A stretch of DNA of 64,000 nucleotides from Deltaproteobacteria bacterium. GTDB lineage: Bacteria; Myxococcota_A; UBA9160; UBA6930. The number at the start of each line of letters is the position of its first letter. Positions within the stretch are counted from its first letter, which is position 1. Below, piece after piece: positions 39,555 through 61,488 of this stretch. The translations under genes were made by a program, and so were the position numbers. The notes under the pieces were generated by a model. The model did not search any database and was not told the origin of the DNA. It saw nothing but the letters and a program-made list of their open reading frames with translations. The stretch lies in NCBI GenBank assembly GCA_029261795.1, contig JAJDAP010000079.1, positions 1 through 64,000 of the forward strand, written 5' to 3'.

Positions 39555-40430
39555 TCAGTTGCGGCGGTCCCGAGGGTCGTCTTCGGTCACGCCGGTGAGC
39601 AGGCGGATACGGTGCTGGATGATCTCGAGTCGCCCGCCGTCGTTCTTGCGAAGCCCGGGCGGCAGATCCGCCGCCTCGACGAGGGCCCGGGTCACGTCCA
39701 TCCGTTCCTGGGGCGCCGGATGGGACGACTGCCAGCTGGTGCTCTGGATCCCGGTCTCGTTGCGCAGCGTCTCGAACATGTTGACGATGCCCATCGGGTC
39801 GTAGCCGGCCCTCGGCAGGAGTTCGACGCCATAGACGTCGGCCTGACTCTCGGCTTCGCGACCGAAACGATTGATGTAGGCGAGCGCCGAAACCCCCGTC
39901 AGGATGTTCGCGGCGTTCGCCGCGCCCCCGCCGAGCAGGATCGCGGCCGCCACGGTGGCGGCTTTGTTCAGGTAGCCGGCATTCTGCGCACGCACCTGGT
40001 TGTCGGCCGAATGGCGATGCACGATGTGGCCGATCTCGTGGCCCAGCACACCCGCCAGCTCGCTGACGTTGCGGACATTCAGGATCATGCCCGTCGTGAT
40101 GAAGATCGAGCCTCCCGGCGCCGCCAGGGCGTTCAGGGTCTCGTCGTCGACGACCGTGAAGGTGTAGTCGAAGGCCTGCGGGCCGGCGGCGGCCAGAAGC
40201 TCTTCGCCGACGGCGTCGATGTACTGGTCGACGACGCGATCGTGGAGGATGTCGAACTCCATCCGCGCCTGGCGCGCAACCTCGCCGGCGCGCGCTCGCT
40301 CCTCCTGGACGGTGGGCTTCGAGGCGCAACCGGACACGACGAGCGCGGCAACCGCGAGGGCCACCACGAAGCGACGCAACCCATCGAGGCCTCGTTCGTG
40401 TCGGACGGAACTACGCTTCTCGGGAGCCAT
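39555..40430 (-). CDS. M48-family metalloprotease lipoprotein
   Basis: VLGHEIGHIVHRHS zinc motif; lipobox-like VSGC. Confidence 0.88.
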   Translation of the reverse strand: MAPEKRSSVRHERGLDGLRRFVVALAVAALVVSGCASKPTVQEERARAGEVARQARMEFDILHDRVVDQYIDAVGEELLAAAGPQAFDYTFTVVDDETLNALAAPGGSIFITTGMILNVRNVSELAGVLGHEIGHIVHRHSADNQVRAQNAGYLNKAATVAAAILLGGGAANAANILTGVSALAYINRFGREAESQADVYGVELLPRAGYDPMGIVNMFETLRNETGIQSTSWQSSHPAPQERMDVTRALVEAADLPPGLRKNDGGRLEIIQHRIRLLTGVTEDDPRDRRN

Positions 40431-41580
40431 CGGTTGCCTCTCCCTCTTTGCGGAGCGACTCGGTCACGTGTCGGAGAATCGACAGGACGGAGCCGTCGAA
40501 GGAATCGTTGTCGACGATCGGAAGCCCGTAGTGGTCTGCGAGTTCCAGGATGTGATCTTGGATGCGTAGGATCGAATCGAGGTTCTCGAGGTAGCGGTGC
40601 TTGAGCCGGCGCCCGCCTGCGCGCTCACGTTTCTCGAAGCGCCCTTCGAAGGCCTCGTCCTCGAGGGTGGCGACCGCCAGGAAGATGACGTGAGCCGAGC
40701 CGCGCCAGGCCTCCGGATCGATCAGCCCGGGAAGGATCGAAACGCCCTCCAGGATCATGCTCGTGTTCTCTTCGACGGCGCGATCCATCATCGCCTTCAC
40801 CCCGATCGAAACCGTGGTCGCCTGCTGTCGGAAAGCATCGATCGCGGGGTCCTCGGATTGATCGAGACCGGCCACCTCTCGATAGGCATCGTAGGAAGAG
40901 GCGTGGATCGCGGGGGCCAGTTCCTTCGACAGCATGATGCGCATGACCTGGCGGATCGCGTCGGTCGACACGACCCTGGAGATCCCGAGGCGGTGGGAAA
41001 CCTCCTGGGCCAGGGCGGTCTTGCCCACGCCGGCGGCACCCACGAGCAGCAAGATCATCGGCTTGTCCGATTCCTGGAATTGCCGCCAGACCTGATAGCG
41101 CCCGGCCACCCGATCGCTGGTGCGCTCGAGGTTCTGGTAGACCAGGTTTCGCAGGTCGCCGCGATCGATCTCGCGAATCAGACGCGAATGCAGCGTCGCC
41201 TCGATGGCCTGGGCGGAGCGAAAGGCTTCATCGGGCGCCATCGCGGCGGCAAGCAGGCTCTGCGCCAGCACCCCCTTCGAGAATGGCGTTCGTTTGCGCC
41301 CGTCGATGACGTCGATGGTCCGCGGCATTTCGACCGGGCGGGCTTCGATGCTGTCCCCGAGCAACTCGTCGACCATCGCCGCGATCTCATCGCGCTGAAC
41401 CACCGCTCGGCCGCGGATCTTGTCGCGGATCGCGGTGGCAGACCGGTAGGCGTCGTCGAAGCCGGCGCCCCGCGACATCAGCGAATGGACGATGATGCCG
41501 CGCATGAAGGGCCGCTGGGTGGCGCCGTCATCGACCATGGTGCGCGGGTTCTTCGGGTCGCGTCCCCGCTTTTCGGCCAT
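40411..41580 (-). CDS. 2-phosphoglycerate-kinase-like protein with N-terminal ATP-cone-like repeats
   Basis: Two RxPFxRGI/KRTPFSKGVLAQSL repeats; LLVGAAGVGKTALAQEVSHRLGI; ILEGVSILPGLID. Confidence 0.7.
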   Translation of the reverse strand: MAEKRGRDPKNPRTMVDDGATQRPFMRGIIVHSLMSRGAGFDDAYRSATAIRDKIRGRAVVQRDEIAAMVDELLGDSIEARPVEMPRTIDVIDGRKRTPFSKGVLAQSLLAAAMAPDEAFRSAQAIEATLHSRLIREIDRGDLRNLVYQNLERTSDRVAGRYQVWRQFQESDKPMILLLVGAAGVGKTALAQEVSHRLGISRVVSTDAIRQVMRIMLSKELAPAIHASSYDAYREVAGLDQSEDPAIDAFRQQATTVSIGVKAMMDRAVEENTSMILEGVSILPGLIDPEAWRGSAHVIFLAVATLEDEAFEGRFEKRERAGGRRLKHRYLENLDSILRIQDHILELADHYGLPIVDNDSFDGSVLSILRHVTESLRKEGEATDGSREA

Positions 41581-41958: not shown

Positions 41959-43053
41959 ATGCGAACCATCGCCATCGTCAACCAGAAGGGAGGCTGCGGG
42001 AAGACCACGACCACCGTGAATCTCGCCGGCTGCCTCGCGGTCGCGGGCTCCCGCGTGCTCGTGGTGGATATGGATCCTCAGGCCCATTCGACGCTCGCCC
42101 TCGGCTTCGATCCCGAGACCATCGACGAGAACCTCTACGAAGTCCTCTGCGAACCGGCGGGGCATGAAGCGGCGACGCCGCTCGAGGAAGTGATCCTCGC
42201 CTGGGACGAACGGCTTCACATTGCGCCCTCGGGAATCGTCCTGTCTGCCCTCGAGCAGAAGCTCTCCGCCGACCGGGCCGAGGACCGCATGGAGCGACTC
42301 TGGCGCGCGCTCGAGAGCGTCGCGGAGCGCTATGACTATGCGATCATCGACTGCCCGCCTAACGTCGGTGTACTGACCTTCAACGCGTTGCGTGCCGCCC
42401 GCGAGGTGATCGTTCCGTTGGAGACCAGCGATTTCGCGATCCACGGCGTACAGAAGCTGCTCGAGACCATCGCCTTGCTGTCGGATCGGATCGGCCACGA
42501 GCTCGCAGTGCGCATCCTGCCCACGCTCTATGACGGCCGCACCCGCTACGCCCGCGAGACTCTGGGTGAGATTCGGAGTCTGTTCGGCGACCTCTGCTTC
42601 GATACCGTCGTGCGCTCGAATATCAAGCTGCGCGAGGCCGCACGGCGCGGCCGGCCGATCGTCAGCTATGCCCGCTCGGCAAACGGTGCCCAGGACTACG
42701 GTGCCCTCGCCATCGAGTTGGCGCTGACGCTGAGCCCCGACGAGATAGGGGAACAGGTACCGGACTTCGCGCCCGGCGGACCCGCGCGCGAGGTCGTCAT
42801 CCAGTTCCGCGATCTCGGCGCGACGGACGTCCGGCTCGCCGGCGACTTCAACGGCTGGGTTCCCGACAAGGATGTTCGCTCGTTGGTCCAGGCCGAGGCG
42901 GGAGACCGGATCTGGACCAAGATCCTGACGCTCCCGCCGGGCACCTATCATTATCGTTATGTCGTCGACGGCGAATGGCGGGAAGACCCCGTGAATCCGG
43001 TCTCGGCGCCGGGACCGGTCGGCGGTCGCAACTCCGTTCTGGTGGTGCGGTAG
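41959..43053 (+). CDS. ParA-family ATPase with C-terminal AMPK-CBM/CBM48-like domain
   Basis: IAIVNQKGGCGKTTTTVNLAG, VDMDPQAHSTLALG, IIDCPPNVGVLT; C-terminus VRLAGDFNGWVPD...GTYHYRYVVDGEWREDPVNP; SD aaggagg. Confidence 0.85.
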   Translation: MRTIAIVNQKGGCGKTTTTVNLAGCLAVAGSRVLVVDMDPQAHSTLALGFDPETIDENLYEVLCEPAGHEAATPLEEVILAWDERLHIAPSGIVLSALEQKLSADRAEDRMERLWRALESVAERYDYAIIDCPPNVGVLTFNALRAAREVIVPLETSDFAIHGVQKLLETIALLSDRIGHELAVRILPTLYDGRTRYARETLGEIRSLFGDLCFDTVVRSNIKLREAARRGRPIVSYARSANGAQDYGALAIELALTLSPDEIGEQVPDFAPGGPAREVVIQFRDLGATDVRLAGDFNGWVPDKDVRSLVQAEAGDRIWTKILTLPPGTYHYRYVVDGEWREDPVNPVSAPGPVGGRNSVLVVR

Positions 43054-43060
43054 GTCCCGG

Positions 43061-43855
43061 TTGGCGCGCAAGCTCGGCGACGTCCTTCACCTCATGCTCG
43101 GCGAGCAGGAACCGGCTGCGACTATGGCCAGACCCGCCAGCCGGGATCCCGACCCGGCGGATACCCGCGTGCCGGGCACGGGCGTGCCGGGCACGGGCGT
43201 GCGAGGCACGGGCGTGCCAGCCACGGGCGTGGTCACCTGTCGGCTCGGCCCCTTCGACCAGCTCGAGGCCTCGGCGGCGTGGAATCTGGCCGCCGCTCAC
43301 GCCGTGGTGGCTGGGCCTACCACCTGGATCTCGGATTCCCCATGGGCAGGCGCGCGGCCATCGCCACCCGAGAGTGAGTTCCAACAGATCGTCCTCGCCG
43401 GCCCCGATCTCGAGAACGGGGTCGTTTCCGCCGAGAGCCCGTCGGTCTGGCTAGGCCTTCCGGAAGGTTCTCCAGAACGCGAGGAGTGGCTCGGCGCGAC
43501 CCTCCAGTTCGTCTCCCGCGAGCCCGGTTCCCGAAGCCGCTGTTTTCGCCGACTCGAAGAAACCGCCGGGGGGAAGGCCGCAACGGGCAGCCACTGGGTC
43601 GTCGCATTGGCTTCCAGCCCCTCATGCGGGGCGACGGACGGGGCCACGTTGGCGGCCGAAATCCGCGATCGGTTCGGCGATCTGGCCCAGGTGTTTCCTC
43701 GAGCCCTGGCCTGCGAGGCGGCCCTCTACCGCTCCTGGGTGACCCGGCTGCCGATCGCCCAGTTCCGGCCTGAATCGCGCGAGACGGTGGCACTGTTCCA
43801 GATCGCGCGCGCCATTTCGGTTGGCGCCTCGGAACCCGCCGCCTCGGGTCGCTAG
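43061..43855 (+). CDS. Hypothetical protein containing VPGTG-like pentapeptide tandem repeat
   Basis: Open frame closely downstream of ParA-CBM; VPGTGVPGTGVRGTGVPATG. Confidence 0.5.
   Translation: MARKLGDVLHLMLGEQEPAATMARPASRDPDPADTRVPGTGVPGTGVRGTGVPATGVVTCRLGPFDQLEASAAWNLAAAHAVVAGPTTWISDSPWAGARPSPPESEFQQIVLAGPDLENGVVSAESPSVWLGLPEGSPEREEWLGATLQFVSREPGSRSRCFRRLEETAGGKAATGSHWVVALASSPSCGATDGATLAAEIRDRFGDLAQVFPRALACEAALYRSWVTRLPIAQFRPESRETVALFQIARAISVGASEPAASGR
43167..43226 (+). repeat. 4 x 15-bp tandem repeat (gcgtgccgggcacgg) inside CDS
   Basis: gcgtgccgggcacgg x2, gcgtgcgaggcacgg, gcgtgccagccacgg. Confidence 0.85.
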
Positions 43856-44092
43856 CCGCAGGTCCCCATCCGCCATCGTTTCCGACGGTGCCTGGCGGAG
43901 CGGGCGCTCTCTGCGGGTCTCAAACAGCGTTTGTACCCCGCGGGATCCGGACTTTGTCCGCGGGGGGCATTCCCTGCGACGAAATTCGTCCAGGGGTGAC
44001 GAAAATTGACACCTCCTTCCACTCCGAGGCCACTCATCAGCCTGGGGGGATGCATCGTTGCTTCGGCGGCGGGACCTTGGGGAAGGGGAGAC

Positions 44093-44683
44093 ATGGCAGC
44101 TCGGGAAGCGGATGAAGCAGCAGCTGTAGAAAGCCTCGAGATTGCGGATGAGGTTCTCGTCCAGAGAATCATCGAAGGGAAGACCAACGAGTTCGACGTC
44201 CTGTACGAGCGGTACTTCAAACGAATCCATCGCTTCGTATCCCGCCGAATGGCCAACGCGGCCGACGTCGAGGAGACCGTGCAGGAGGTCTTCATCAACG
44301 TGCTCCGCTCGCTCGAGTCGTTCCGCGGCGAAGCGCCATTCGCGGCCTGGGTCTTCGGACTCACCCGCCGCACCATCGCGAACCGCTACAAGCGCAAGCG
44401 TGCCGAGACGATCCCACTCCCGACCGACGAGCAGGAGGCCGCACTCGGCCTGGGCGAGGACGTACCCGGCGAGGCCGACCCGTTGGCCAGCTACGAGCGC
44501 AACGAACGCCTCAAGCAGTTACAACGCGGCGCGGAGCGGTTATCGAACGACCAATGGGAGCTCTTCCGCCTCCACCACCTCGAGCACCGATCGATCGAGG
44601 ACATCGCCTCGCAAACGCACAAGACCCGGGACGCGGTGAAATCGCACTTATACCGGGCGCGCAAGTTATTGCTGGCGCCCTGA
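44093..44683 (+). CDS. ECF-type RNA polymerase sigma factor
   Basis: FDVLYERYFKRIHRFVSRRM, DVEETVQEVFINVLRSL, SIEDIASQTHKTRDAVKSHLYRARKLL. Confidence 0.9.
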   Translation: MAAREADEAAAVESLEIADEVLVQRIIEGKTNEFDVLYERYFKRIHRFVSRRMANAADVEETVQEVFINVLRSLESFRGEAPFAAWVFGLTRRTIANRYKRKRAETIPLPTDEQEAALGLGEDVPGEADPLASYERNERLKQLQRGAERLSNDQWELFRLHHLEHRSIEDIASQTHKTRDAVKSHLYRARKLLLAP

Positions 44684-47169: not shown

Positions 47170-48510
47170 TCAGCGCATCCGTGCGACGAGACGATCCCGT
47201 TCTTCGATCATGCGCGCCTTCGTCTTCGCCTCGAGGTTCAGGCGGAGCAGCGGCTCGGTATTCGAGGGACGCAGATTGAACCACCAGTCCTCGTAGCGAA
47301 CCAGCAGACCATCCATCCAGGAGACCTCGTCGGCGCCGGCGTGTTCGGCGGCCACCTGCTCCATGATCGCGGTCATTCGTTCGCGACTGCCGGCATCCTC
47401 GCTGATCTCACCGCTTGCGAAGTAGCGTCGGAGCGGCGCGATCAACGCGGAGAGCGGACACTTCGCTTCGGCCAGGACGTCGAGCAACGCGATGAATGCG
47501 GCCAGGCCGTCATCCGCCACCAACGTCGGTGAGAAGCGGAAGTAGAAATGCCCGGAGAGTTCGCCAGCGAAGATGGCGTCTTCCCGCCGCATGTCGGCCT
47601 TGACGAACGAGTGCCCCACCCTGCACATGCGGGCGGAACCACCGGCGGCTTCGATCTCTTCGGCCGTGGCCCAGCTCGAGCGGAGGTCATAGAGCACGGT
47701 GCCACCGGGTGCGTGCCGCAGCTGGGAACGCGCGAGCACTGCGGTCATCAGATCGGACGGGACCGGGTTGCCGGTTTCATCGATGAAAACGGCACGGTCC
47801 GCATCGCCGTCGAAGGCCACTCCGAAGGCGGCCCCGGTCTTGCGCACGGCTGCGCAGACGTCGGCCAGATTCTCGATCTTCAGCGGATCCGCCGGATGAT
47901 TCGGGAACGTGCCGTCGGGCTCGAAGTAGAGGCGCGTCACGTCGAGGGGTAGGCGCTCGAGAAGCGGTTCGAGTGCGACGGCGGCCATCCCGTTGCCGCA
48001 ATCGATGGCGGCGCGCACCTCCGGACAGCGGCCGCCCACCGCCAGGACATGCTCGACATAGCCCGCCACCGCGTCGTATTCCGTCCGCTTGCCCAGCGGT
48101 TCCGCGACGGGTTCCGTGGTGACGCTTGCGGTCAGCGCCTCGATCTCGGCCAGGCCCGTCTCGCCACCGACCGGGATCGCATTCTCCCGGCAGATCTTGA
48201 AGCCATTGTATTCGGCGGGATTGTGGGACGCGGTCAACATGATCCCACCGCAGGCACCGAGGTGGTCGACGGCGTAGTAGACCATGGGCGTCGCGGCCAG
48301 GCCCAGATCGACGACCTCGACGCCCTCCTCCCGGATTCCCCGAATCAGTTGCTCCATCAGCAGAGGGGAATGCGCGCGGGCGTCGCGGCCCACCACAATG
48401 CTTCGCGCGCCCAGGAAACGGGCCGTGGCGCGTCCCACCTGATGCGCCGTCGTCGCGTCGAGCTGATCGGGAACGATGCCACGGATGTCGTAGGCCTTGA
48501 AGATGGACAT
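47170..48510 (-). CDS. Phosphomannomutase/phosphoglucomutase
   Basis: FKAYDIRGIVPDQL, VGRDARAHSPLL, GIMLTASHNPAEYNGFK, VAFDGDADRAVFID, RPSNTEPLLR. Confidence 0.92.
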   Translation of the reverse strand: MSIFKAYDIRGIVPDQLDATTAHQVGRATARFLGARSIVVGRDARAHSPLLMEQLIRGIREEGVEVVDLGLAATPMVYYAVDHLGACGGIMLTASHNPAEYNGFKICRENAIPVGGETGLAEIEALTASVTTEPVAEPLGKRTEYDAVAGYVEHVLAVGGRCPEVRAAIDCGNGMAAVALEPLLERLPLDVTRLYFEPDGTFPNHPADPLKIENLADVCAAVRKTGAAFGVAFDGDADRAVFIDETGNPVPSDLMTAVLARSQLRHAPGGTVLYDLRSSWATAEEIEAAGGSARMCRVGHSFVKADMRREDAIFAGELSGHFYFRFSPTLVADDGLAAFIALLDVLAEAKCPLSALIAPLRRYFASGEISEDAGSRERMTAIMEQVAAEHAGADEVSWMDGLLVRYEDWWFNLRPSNTEPLLRLNLEAKTKARMIEERDRLVARMR

Positions 48511-48582
48511 GGCGGGGGATCCTAGCGGCCGCGAGCCGAGGGGGAACTTGACCCTTCGCGAGTCGCCCGGCACCTTCTGGTC

Positions 48583-48777
48583 ATGTTCGGTCTCGGCGTC
48601 ACGGAACTCCTCCTCATTCTTGGTGTGGTCATCGTCATCTTCGGCGCACGGCGACTGCCCGAGGTCGGCTCTGGTCTCGGGAAGGCCATCCGCGGCTTCA
48701 AGACCGGCCTGACCGAGCCGGACGAAATCGACGTCACGCCCAAGAAGGACGAGGTCGAAGACGGCGAGAAGCCCTAG
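48583..48777 (+). CDS. tatA: Sec-independent translocase TatA/TatE
   Basis: [40 protein letters not shown]. Confidence 0.9.
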
Positions 48778-48940
48778 CAGGCTGCGGAAAAACCCACTCC
48801 CGTCGCCAGGCACGCATCTTTCCGGCCCAATCTGCGTTGCGAAGCCTTGCTGGGGCTCGCCCCAGCGGCGGCTCCGCGCCTTGATTGGACCGAAAATCTG
48901 CGCACCGGGCTCGGTCCGGGGTTCTTCCGCAACCTGCTAG
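48774..48940. mobile_element. MITE/ERIC-like imperfect palindromic element (~167 bp)
   Basis: Ends ctagcaggctgcggaaaaaccc / gggttcttccgcaacctgctag (2 mismatches in 22); arms align imperfectly along their whole length. Confidence 0.7.
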
Positions 48941-50560: not shown

Positions 50561-51505
50561 ATGACTTCGATCTTCGAGCGCCGCCTGATCGTGGTCACCG
50601 GCAAGGGCGGGACCGGCAAGACGACGCTCTCGGCGAGCCTGGCACTCGCCGCTGCGGAGCGCGGGCTGCGCGTGGCGGTGGCGGAGACCGGTCGGGATGG
50701 CGCCATGGCGCGCCTGTTCGGTGATCCGCAGCCGGCCGGATATCCCGGCCGCGAGGTCCGGCCGGGCCTTCACGTACTCCACCTCGATCCATTCGAGGCC
50801 CTCGCCGAGTACCTCGATCTCGAGCTTCCACTGCCCGGGCTGAGCCGACGTCTGTTGGCCAACCGGTCCTTCCGCAGCTGGCTCGAAGCCGTCCCGGGCT
50901 GGCGCGAGCTGATCACGCTGGGGAAGTTGTGGCACCTCGAGCAACAGGAAGATCAGGGCCGACCGCGCTTCGACTGCATCGTGGTCGATGCGCCGGCCAC
51001 CGGCCATGGCTTGACGTTCCTCGATGTGCCGCGCGTGGTGGTCTCGGCAGTTCGGAGCGGGCCGCTGCGACGCCGCGCCGCGGCGGTGGAGGCGCTCGTG
51101 CTCGACCCGGCGCGTACGGTCATCCTGCCGGTCACCCTGGCGGAAGAACTCCCGGTGTCGGAAACACTCGAACTCGTCGATCGCCTGGTTCGGGAACGCG
51201 GCGTTTCCGTCGATCGGGTCGTCGTGAACGCCCTCGAACCGCAACCCGCGATCGATCTATCGGAGCTCGCCGCGCGGCTCGAGGCGCTGCCGGCGGAGCT
51301 CGCGGGCGCGCCCTCCCCTCACGGGATCGCGGCCTGCGCGCGCCATCTGAAGCAGCGCACGGACCGCCAGCAGGAGCAACTGAAGCGCTTGCGGGAGGAT
51401 CTCGACCTCCCACTGGTGTGTCTCCCGCGGCTCGCGGGCGGCGTCTCCGGCCTCGACGATCTCCGACAACTAACCATTCACCTTCTGCCCGGAATCGACG
51501 CATGA
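50561..51505 (+). CDS. ArsA/GET3-like anion-transporting ATPase (copy 1)
   Basis: LIVVTGKGGTGKTTLSASLALAAAERG, VVDAPATGHGLTFLD. Confidence 0.85.
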   Translation: MTSIFERRLIVVTGKGGTGKTTLSASLALAAAERGLRVAVAETGRDGAMARLFGDPQPAGYPGREVRPGLHVLHLDPFEALAEYLDLELPLPGLSRRLLANRSFRSWLEAVPGWRELITLGKLWHLEQQEDQGRPRFDCIVVDAPATGHGLTFLDVPRVVVSAVRSGPLRRRAAAVEALVLDPARTVILPVTLAEELPVSETLELVDRLVRERGVSVDRVVVNALEPQPAIDLSELAARLEALPAELAGAPSPHGIAACARHLKQRTDRQQEQLKRLREDLDLPLVCLPRLAGGVSGLDDLRQLTIHLLPGIDA

Positions 51506-58958: not shown

Positions 58959-59356
58959 GCGCACGCACCAAGAAACCGCGGCGAATCCGTCGTGAGAGCG
59001 ACCCGAAGGACCTGGTCGGCCGGGACTTCGCGGGCCGCGGCTCGACGGCAAACCGCTGGCGCCATCGCGCAGCCGCTGTGGTGATCGGCCTCGTGCTCGG
59101 AGGGCTCCTGTTGGCTTCGCTGCGCATGGAGATCGTGCGCACACGTTATGCACTGGCCGATGCCCTGGCCCAGGAGACCCGATTGCTGAGCCTGGAGCGA
59201 GAGGCCAGCGTCGCCCTGCGCGAACTCCGCGACCCGCGTCGTCTGCGCCGTCTCGCCAACCAGCTGGGTTTCGTGCGACCCGAACGCGTCATCGAACTCG
59301 GCACCGACCTTGCCGCACGCGGGGGCGCGGCGCCGAGCGCGGTCGTGATGCCATGA
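58955..59356 (+). CDS. ftsL: FtsL-like cell division protein
   Basis: Single TM, coiled coil, position between rsmH and ftsI; GTG start. Confidence 0.7.
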   Translation: MSARTKKPRRIRRESDPKDLVGRDFAGRGSTANRWRHRAAAVVIGLVLGGLLLASLRMEIVRTRYALADALAQETRLLSLEREASVALRELRDPRRLRRLANQLGFVRPERVIELGTDLAARGGAAPSAVVMP

Positions 59357-61488
59357 GCCGCTCGGACCTGCGCGGTGCCGGCGCACGCCTTCGCTTCCTC
59401 GGGAGCTTGTTGGGTCTGTGCTTCCTGCTCCTCGCGGTCCGAGCCGCGCACTTGACGATCACGGATCCCCGCGGCGCCGAGCGGGGACGCGCCCAGACCG
59501 GCACGGTGCTGCGTGTCGCTACCGCACGAGGCGCCATCGTCGACCGACTCGGTGCCGAGTTGGCGGTAACGATGCCAGCGCCGTCGGTCTACGCAGTGCC
59601 CTCCGAAATCACCGACCTCGATGCCGCTGCAGCCGGCCTCGCGAAAGCACTCGGCCGCGATGCCAGCGGGATTCGCAAACGCCTGACGGAGGCCAGCTCA
59701 TTCGTCTTCGTGGCCCGTTGGTTGCCCGAGAAGGAAGCCCGCGCCGTCGAGGCCCTCGGTCTCTCCGGCGTCGGCATCGTCGCAGAACCGCGGCGCACCT
59801 ACCCCCTCGGCGAAATGGCCGGACGCTTGCTGGGCTTCGCGAATATCGATGGCGAAGGCATCCGCGGCATCGAGCAGGGCGAAGACGAATGGTTGCGCGG
59901 CCAGGACCGGAGAATCGCGCTGGAGCGTGACGCGCGGGGCCGCCTGCTCGCGCCCGGTGGCGTCGACCCGCGCGCGACGGCCGGAGGCGATGTCGCGCTC
60001 ACCATCGATAGCGCGCTCCAGGCCGAGACCGAGCACGCGCTTGCAGATGTGGTGAAGATGACGGGCGCGGCCGGCGGGGTCGTCGTGGCGATGGATCCGG
60101 CCACCGGTGACATCCTCGCCGTCGCTGAATCCCCGGTGCTGGACCCGGCGAGTTTTCGCACGACGCCCTACCCGCTCACCGGCTCCCGGGCGTTCCTCGA
60201 AGCGGACGAGCCGGGTTCCGTCCTGAAGCTCGCCGTGGTGGGCGCCGCGCTCCAAGCCGACGTCCTCGCAGCCGACGAGTTGATCGATTGTGAGGAGGGC
60301 TCCTACCGCGTCCCCGGCAAGACACTTCACGACGCGAAGCCCCACGGGCTTCTCGACCCCGCTGGCATCCTGCGCGTCTCGTCGAACATTGGCGCCGCCA
60401 AGATCGGCGAACGCCTGACACCAGAGCGCCATCATGCGGCCCTACGAGCGCTCGGCTTCGGCGCACCCACGGGCAGTGGCTTCCCCAGCGAATCCGCCGG
60501 CCTGTTGCGGGCGCCCGAGGGTTGGCGACCCCTCGATCAGGCCACGATCTCGTTTGGCCAGGGCATCAACGTGACGCCTGTACAGCTGGCCGCCGCCGGG
60601 GTGGCGGTCGCCAACGGCGGAACCTGGCGGACACCCCGCCTCATCTCTGCACGGCGCCGGCCCGGCGAGGACTGGGTTCCCGAGCCGACTGGCGCCACCC
60701 ACAGCGCCCTGTCTCGGAAGGTCGCCGATCAGCTTCGCGAGATGCTCGTGACCGTGACCCAGGACGATGGCACGGCCAGCCACGCCACCCTCGACAACGT
60801 CGCGGTGGCCGGCAAGACCGGCACCGCCCAGAAGTTCGACCCGATCGCGGGCGCCTATTCGAACAGCGACTATCAAGGCTGGTTTCTGGGCATGGCTCCT
60901 GCCGCGGACCCGCAGGTCGTGATCGTTGCCATGATCGACGAGCCGCGCGGGCGCTCCCACGGCGGTGGTGCCACGGCCGCGCCCCTGTTCGCCCGGGTCG
61001 CCACAGCCGCTCTCGCGCGGAACGCGATCGTGACGACCCCGCGACACGACGTGCCAGCCATGGCGCGGGTCGATGGCAGTGAGCCGACGAGGTCGGCCGC
61101 CGTCAGCACGGCGCCTCCGGTGGAGCCGGAGCCCGCGGCGGCGCCGGAGCCGGCGGCCATCGTGGAGACGACGACCCCTGCGCCCGTCGTGCCCGACCGG
61201 CCCGCTAGCGGCAACATCGAAGTCATCCTCGCCAGGCCCGAGAAGGCCCCTGCTGCGAGTCCTTCGGCGTTGCGGCCCACGCCCGAAATCAGCTGGCTCG
61301 GCGACCGCGTGCTGCTTCCGGACTTGCGGGGTCTAACCCCGAAACAGGTGAAGGAGATCACGGACACGGTGCCCTTCTCGCTGGAGATTCGAGGGGACGG
61401 CAGAGTGGTTTCGCAGGTTCCGGCACCCGGGACCATCCTCGGCGTAGATGCACCGTTGCGACTGACGCTCGGAGGAGACGAAGGGTGA
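59353..61488 (+). CDS. ftsI: Penicillin-binding protein FtsI/PBP with C-terminal PASTA domain
   Basis: RGAIVDRLGAELA, SSNIGAAKIG, AGKTGTAQKFDP; LLPDLRGLTPKQVKE PASTA. Confidence 0.92.
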   Translation: MSRSDLRGAGARLRFLGSLLGLCFLLLAVRAAHLTITDPRGAERGRAQTGTVLRVATARGAIVDRLGAELAVTMPAPSVYAVPSEITDLDAAAAGLAKALGRDASGIRKRLTEASSFVFVARWLPEKEARAVEALGLSGVGIVAEPRRTYPLGEMAGRLLGFANIDGEGIRGIEQGEDEWLRGQDRRIALERDARGRLLAPGGVDPRATAGGDVALTIDSALQAETEHALADVVKMTGAAGGVVVAMDPATGDILAVAESPVLDPASFRTTPYPLTGSRAFLEADEPGSVLKLAVVGAALQADVLAADELIDCEEGSYRVPGKTLHDAKPHGLLDPAGILRVSSNIGAAKIGERLTPERHHAALRALGFGAPTGSGFPSESAGLLRAPEGWRPLDQATISFGQGINVTPVQLAAAGVAVANGGTWRTPRLISARRRPGEDWVPEPTGATHSALSRKVADQLREMLVTVTQDDGTASHATLDNVAVAGKTGTAQKFDPIAGAYSNSDYQGWFLGMAPAADPQVVIVAMIDEPRGRSHGGGATAAPLFARVATAALARNAIVTTPRHDVPAMARVDGSEPTRSAAVSTAPPVEPEPAAAPEPAAIVETTTPAPVVPDRPASGNIEVILARPEKAPAASPSALRPTPEISWLGDRVLLPDLRGLTPKQVKEITDTVPFSLEIRGDGRVVSQVPAPGTILGVDAPLRLTLGGDEG

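Follow-up and report, generated by a model that had tools for sequence, protein, structure and literature searches.

A ParA-type ATPase fused to an AMPK/CBM48-like domain and encoded beside a degenerate MinD-like protein: a candidate two-gene positioning module

The DNA analysed here (the window) is a 64,000-nucleotide stretch from a Deltaproteobacteria bacterium. Positions 41959-43053 translate, from an ATG at 41959 and with zero internal stops, into a 364-amino acid protein that we call ParA-CBM. A second gene, which we call the partner, starts 7 nt past the parA-CBM stop, and an ECF sigma factor gene follows on the same strand. The features, with the evidence for each, are:

41959..42723, + strand: ParA/MinD-type ATPase domain, residues 1-255 (Pfam AAA_31, ParA/Soj structures in the PDB, invariant motifs, structural model)
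42724..42786, + strand: variable linker of 21 amino acids, residues 256-276 (low identity, dN/dS, pLDDT)
42787..43053, + strand: AMPK-beta/CBM48-type carbohydrate-binding domain, residues 277-364 plus stop (PF16561, AMPK-beta PDB chains, invariance, dN/dS)
43061..43855, + strand: partner, 264 amino acids from a TTG start, a predicted FlhG/FleN-fold pseudo-ATPase without Walker A (HMM, profile, model of a class member)
43061..43105, + strand: N-terminal basic/amphipathic peptide of the partner, MARKLGDVLHLMLGE, proposed to activate ParA (conservation of R3, L5 and V8, likeness to ParB)
44006..44683, + strand: ECF sigma factor, whose true start may be nearer 44096 (Sigma70_r2, 1.7e-14; r4_2, 2e-11)

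A preliminary description of this DNA had read 41959-43053 as a complete ParA/MinD ATPase continuing in frame into an AMPK/CBM48-like domain, and both the coordinates and the domain call proved right. Pfam assigned residues 1-183 to AAA_31 (2e-50) and recognised the C-terminus, at residues 279-350, as AMPK1_CBM (PF16561; 45.7 bits against a cut-off of 26.8). Sequence searches of the PDB returned ParA/Soj proteins for the first part (down to 4.9e-44) and solved AMPK-beta carbohydrate-binding modules (CBMs) for the last 97 residues (1.4e-8); the NCBIfam matches on the ATPase half were of the ParA type and all sub-threshold. In the AlphaFold2 model of the window protein, based on 48 homologues (mean pLDDT 90.8), a beta-sandwich comes after a ParA fold predicted with confidence; only the surroundings of the linker are weak, with pLDDT near 55 at about residues 261-270. 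The ATPase half carries a deviant Walker A motif (K10-GGCGK15-TT), a Walker A' motif (D37-D39) and a Walker B motif (D131-CPPN); K10, K15, D37, D39 and D131 are invariant in 48/48 fusions, and the basic residues near 219-225 are mostly conserved in the fusion alignment. By its motifs, then, ParA-CBM is a ParA/MinD (A/D) ATPase.

The two domains are equally constrained. In comparison with the congeneric copy, dN/dS values for the ParA part, the CBM and the linker are 0.063, 0.061 and 0.57, and the corresponding identities to the window protein across 48 fusions are 64%, 63% and 8%. Because of these values we conclude that the CBM is kept as strictly as the ATPase, both parts evidently being under equally strong purifying selection. 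A profile search of the window's genome found PF16561 in ParA-CBM and nowhere else. The domain was matched in 11/14 genomes of the family, each time (11/11) as the same fusion, and in 80/91 genomes of the class, where ParA lies in frame upstream of the CBM at 56/57 named loci examined; at the remaining one, L068, Ns in the assembly interrupt the locus. Judged by the names of these relatives, the class is probably Myxococcota-type (UBA9160-like), L068 coming from a UBA9160 isolate. The architecture also turns up beyond the class, in MAGs labelled Nitrospirota, Acidobacteria, Zixibacteriota, Muproteobacteria/Gammaproteobacteria, Rokubacteria, Phycisphaerae/Sedimentisphaerales and Omnitrophota, and the carriers found are uncultured MAGs. 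Since independent assemblies carry the same fusion, a frameshift, chimaerism or a misassembly joining two genes is excluded, as it is by the intact reading frame and by dN/dS. In place of the 21-residue linker of the window protein, the fusions of L098, L104 and L108 have a strongly acidic, partly repetitive tether of about 330 amino acids between ParA and CBM, giving 698-718-amino acid forms.

The fusion is not the chromosome-partitioning ParA of its host, because the same genome encodes, at C127, a separate canonical ParA, 42% identical to the ParA domain of the fusion, with ParB directly after it. In a maximum-likelihood tree, a branch with 100/99 support split the 48 fusion ParAs from eight unfused ParAs, the host's own chromosomal ParA among them. 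C13 is present in all fusions, in place of the KGGVGK of unfused ParAs, and H43 is likewise diagnostic, being seen in none of the eight. The fusion ParAs thus appear to form one clade, apparently of single origin, which is supported but not proven because eight outgroups are few. A plasmid origin was also considered and rejected: tblastn against PLSDB gave no closely related ParA, the best 5000 records all falling below 60% identity, and the ten matches listed cover only about 70-74% of the query and end by residue 272.

Most of the functional information at the locus sits in the partner gene, which the preliminary description had missed. A family HMM found the partner directly downstream of parA-CBM at 54/57 class loci as well as in the window, where the protein scores E 5e-36 against an HMM that includes it, and, in other phyla, at L098, L103, L104, L108, L113 and L116. 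Several loci outside the class (L094-L097, L099-L102, L111 and L115) show no partner by HMM in the flanking DNA covered, so the pair does not occur everywhere. No Pfam family matches the partner, and hence no ParB domain. A profile of 52 partners matches FleN (5e-16) and FlhG (1e-15) over the whole body; in this alignment, FleN's Walker A sequence GGKGGVGKT stands opposite pIGERDVVRA and the P-loop is absent. Since Walker A is replaced, the partner cannot be a normal ATPase. The AlphaFold2 model of a class member (L053; mean pLDDT 89.4, with the first 40-55 residues or so at low confidence) has FlhG as its nearest PDB fold (4rz2, E 3.2e-13). As modelled, the partner represents a new family, one without a Pfam entry, with a degenerate MinD-like/FlhG fold. 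Compared with most class members, the copy in the window has diverged further, and its linker holds a short repeat, PGTGVPGTGVRGTGVPATGV.

The most conserved short motif of the partner is its first residues, with the class consensus MPRDLxDVLHYFLPE; L5 is invariant in 52 partners, and R3 and V8 are nearly so. The host's own ParB begins MMAQRRNALGRGLGALL, and the partners of L116 and L106 carry LGRGL, as that ParB does; the resemblance between the partner N-terminus and the ParB peptide is short. That the body behind the LGRGL peptide is a different one at L106 points to the peptide as a portable tag for binding ParA. According to PMC10241942, the partners of ParA/MinD ATPases use a charged N-terminal stretch to bind and stimulate the ATPase and the remainder to bind cargo; the N-terminal sequence of the partner described here fits this rule. 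In McdA/McdB and other A/D ATPase positioning systems, too, a ParA-type ATPase comes first and is succeeded by a partner that has a charged peptide at its N-terminus and, apart from it, a body that faces the cargo (PMC10241942, PMC13052382). They differ in that here the ATPase itself bears a CBM48 and the partner body is a degenerate MinD/FlhG fold; moreover, McdB has an invariant C-terminal Trp, whereas none is conserved in the 52 partners. Chromosomal ParA-ParB is related through its ParA and through the LGRGL peptide, but it is set apart by the ParB domain that our partner lacks and by C13 and H43, which mark a separate clade.

FlhG/FleN, which shares the MinD-like fold and profile similarity of the partner but retains Walker A, brings in a different reading, in which the pseudo-FlhG partner and ParA-CBM form a transcription-regulatory module controlling the neighbouring ECF sigma factor. 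FleN controls FleQ, and FlhG works with the flagellar sigma factor FliA. FliA is also given as an FlhG partner in PMC10241942. Because the ECF sigma gene is a conserved downstream neighbour in 48 class loci (and follows in the CBM-less genome G034 as well), this reading stays in play; it gains something, too, from a MerR-like gene that immediately precedes the ParA gene in at least two phyla (L098, L103, L108 and L132, the last from G034). In other phyla, however, the ECF gene is not beside the pair; in the window it is at least 150 bp apart, and no anti-sigma motif was identified. We infer that the ECF factor might be linked to the module, and we regard transcriptional control as its function as distinctly unlikely.

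The carbohydrate-binding half was compared with AMPK-beta1, in which we take the glucan-contact residues to be W100, K126, W133 and N150. In a pairwise alignment, W300, R333, W340 and N358 of the window protein align with the AMPK-beta contacts. Among the 48 fusions, both tryptophans are kept in 48/48, R/K at 333 in 48/48 and N358 in 41/48, which argues that the ligand face is retained. With the CBM48s of the AMPK beta-subunit and the glucan phosphatases SEX4/LSF1, the CBM of the fusion shares the domain family and the contact residues; the difference is that here the CBM is fused to ParA, in bacteria without detectable glycogen enzymes. The same residues bear on whether the CBM48 fold was co-opted for protein-protein contacts or dimerisation and binds no sugar. 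E-set/CBM48 folds do serve as interaction modules, and the host is without standard alpha-glucan enzymes, both of which would suit such reuse. Structural reuse should nevertheless let the ligand face drift, and across several phyla it has not, so that we consider this explanation unlikely.

The preliminary description had proposed that a positioning-type ATPase coupled to a glycan-binding fold serves the positioning of glycogen granules or else a partitioning that responds to carbohydrate. The coupling stands, with both the architecture and the contact residues kept; glycogen granules as the cargo are not supported here, and carbohydrate-responsive partitioning may apply. In detail, that proposal has the CBM tether ParA to glycogen while ParA spaces the granules or secures their inheritance. 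It draws on the retained glucan contacts of an AMPK-beta-type CBM and on the fact that some class members do possess GT5 glycogen synthase and phosphorylase. Against it, a search that covered four families (GT5 glycogen synthase, phosphorylase, CBM_48 and GH13) found none of them in the window's genome (90.7% complete) or in the congeneric genome G007. The family searches matched in 10 to 13 of 14 reference genomes used as controls. With the fusion's own CBM_48 rows set aside, 38/80 carriers are without all four families, 15 of them within a set of 36 genomes that are about 90% complete or more and low in contamination. Across the class, no association was seen between the fusion and any of the four families (Fisher p 0.69-1.0, with only 11 negatives). 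A link to the glycogen pathway was thus unsupported. Because the host is without detectable glycogen-making enzymes, glycogen as the obvious cargo is probably wrong, and the ligand in this host is, as far as gene content tells, probably not glycogen. Granule positioning now seems to us very improbable.

Natural relatives without the CBM separate the core of the system from its accessory. PF16561 has no match in 11 genomes of the class. Two of these, G025 and G034, keep the specific ParA, at 62% and 71% identity, respectively, with the partner directly after it, and in the DNA of both the CBM is missing. The end of the G025 ParA, SAPGPNGSGGRSGSVVPAR, looks like the tail of a CBM whose middle was deleted; G025 is a single contig at only 68% completeness, so an assembly error is possible there, and G034 is independent. 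Because these two genomes keep the pair without the CBM, ParA and partner appear to be the core and the CBM a losable accessory. Such relatives are ready controls.

This loss pattern is also what would be expected of a regulatory add-on. The CBM could be an allosteric sensor, through which a soluble oligosaccharide or another metabolite acts as a switch on the ParA ATPase or on how tightly it binds the partner, with no large glycan cargo. AMPK is modulated by glycogen through its beta subunit. The conserved binding platform and the long acidic tethers of L098, L104 and L108 agree with a sensor, yet a tethering role accounts for the same facts, and we judge a purely sensory function improbable.

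The interpretation we favour, and hold to be somewhat probable, is that the two proteins encoded at 41959-43855 work as a ParA-type module for positioning or partitioning, with the CBM as an accessory domain that binds or senses a glycan. With ATP, ParA-CBM would form a dimer and attach to a matrix, for which the nucleoid is the likeliest candidate. Like ParB and McdB, the partner would promote ATP hydrolysis and release, here through its basic N-terminal peptide, and it would connect the system with cargo through its degenerate MinD-like body. A glycan or a glycan-coated structure would be bound or sensed by ParA's CBM, which would thereby target or gate the ATPase, so that specificity would come from the pseudo-FlhG body of the partner and from the CBM. 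No cargo gene conserved beside the pair across phyla was seen. A bolder form of this module is possible and decidedly tentative: an undescribed class of ParA positioning systems, spread over approximately eight phyla, in which the ATPase itself recognises a glycan other than glycogen or a body coated with glycan, and a pseudo-FlhG has evolved into a ParB-like activator and adaptor.

The structures placed by ParA/MinD ATPases include chromosomes, plasmids, carboxysomes, flagella and chemoreceptor arrays, but many of these ATPases are orphans as to partner and cargo. The fusions described here are a conserved family whose partner, a dead MinD-like protein, is of a novel type and whose ATPase bears a glycan-binding-type domain. 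Our literature searches found no publication on a ParA-CBM48 or ParA-isoamylase protein, wider word searches giving unrelated papers only, and neither a review nor a survey of ParA/MinD positioning mentions glycogen or carbohydrate. If the glycan link is true, bacteria could in this way place a polysaccharide-bearing body or pass it on, or could tie partitioning to their carbohydrate state, and ParA/MinD positioning would gain a new class of cargo or signal.

Several further genes were noted around the pair. In other phyla, a third protein of about 200 amino acids follows the partner (L098, 1127-1741; L108, 1080-1673; L103, 1119-1709; L116, 1252-1878; coordinates are offsets from the CBM start). 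Pfam has no family for it; by eye, its DLLGVD...ITIGTKD segment suggests a degenerate PD-(D/E)XK-type fold, and at L106 a similar-looking domain lies behind the LGRGL peptide. In the window, a gene for a 2-phosphoglycerate kinase-like protein with an ATP-cone (40411-41580, - strand) is divergent from parA-CBM and kept in class synteny; it adjoins genes for an M48 BepA-like peptidase, a MoxR-type AAA protein and a VWA protein. Near the pair we noticed a single gene for sugar precursors, encoding a phosphoglucomutase/phosphomannomutase (47170-48813, - strand); it lies 4 kb away in conserved class synteny. Within 20 kb of the pair are also an ArsA/GET3-like ATPase (50561-51505, + strand) and an FtsI-type PBP with a PASTA domain (59353-61488, + strand), the latter probably the start of a division/cell-wall cluster.
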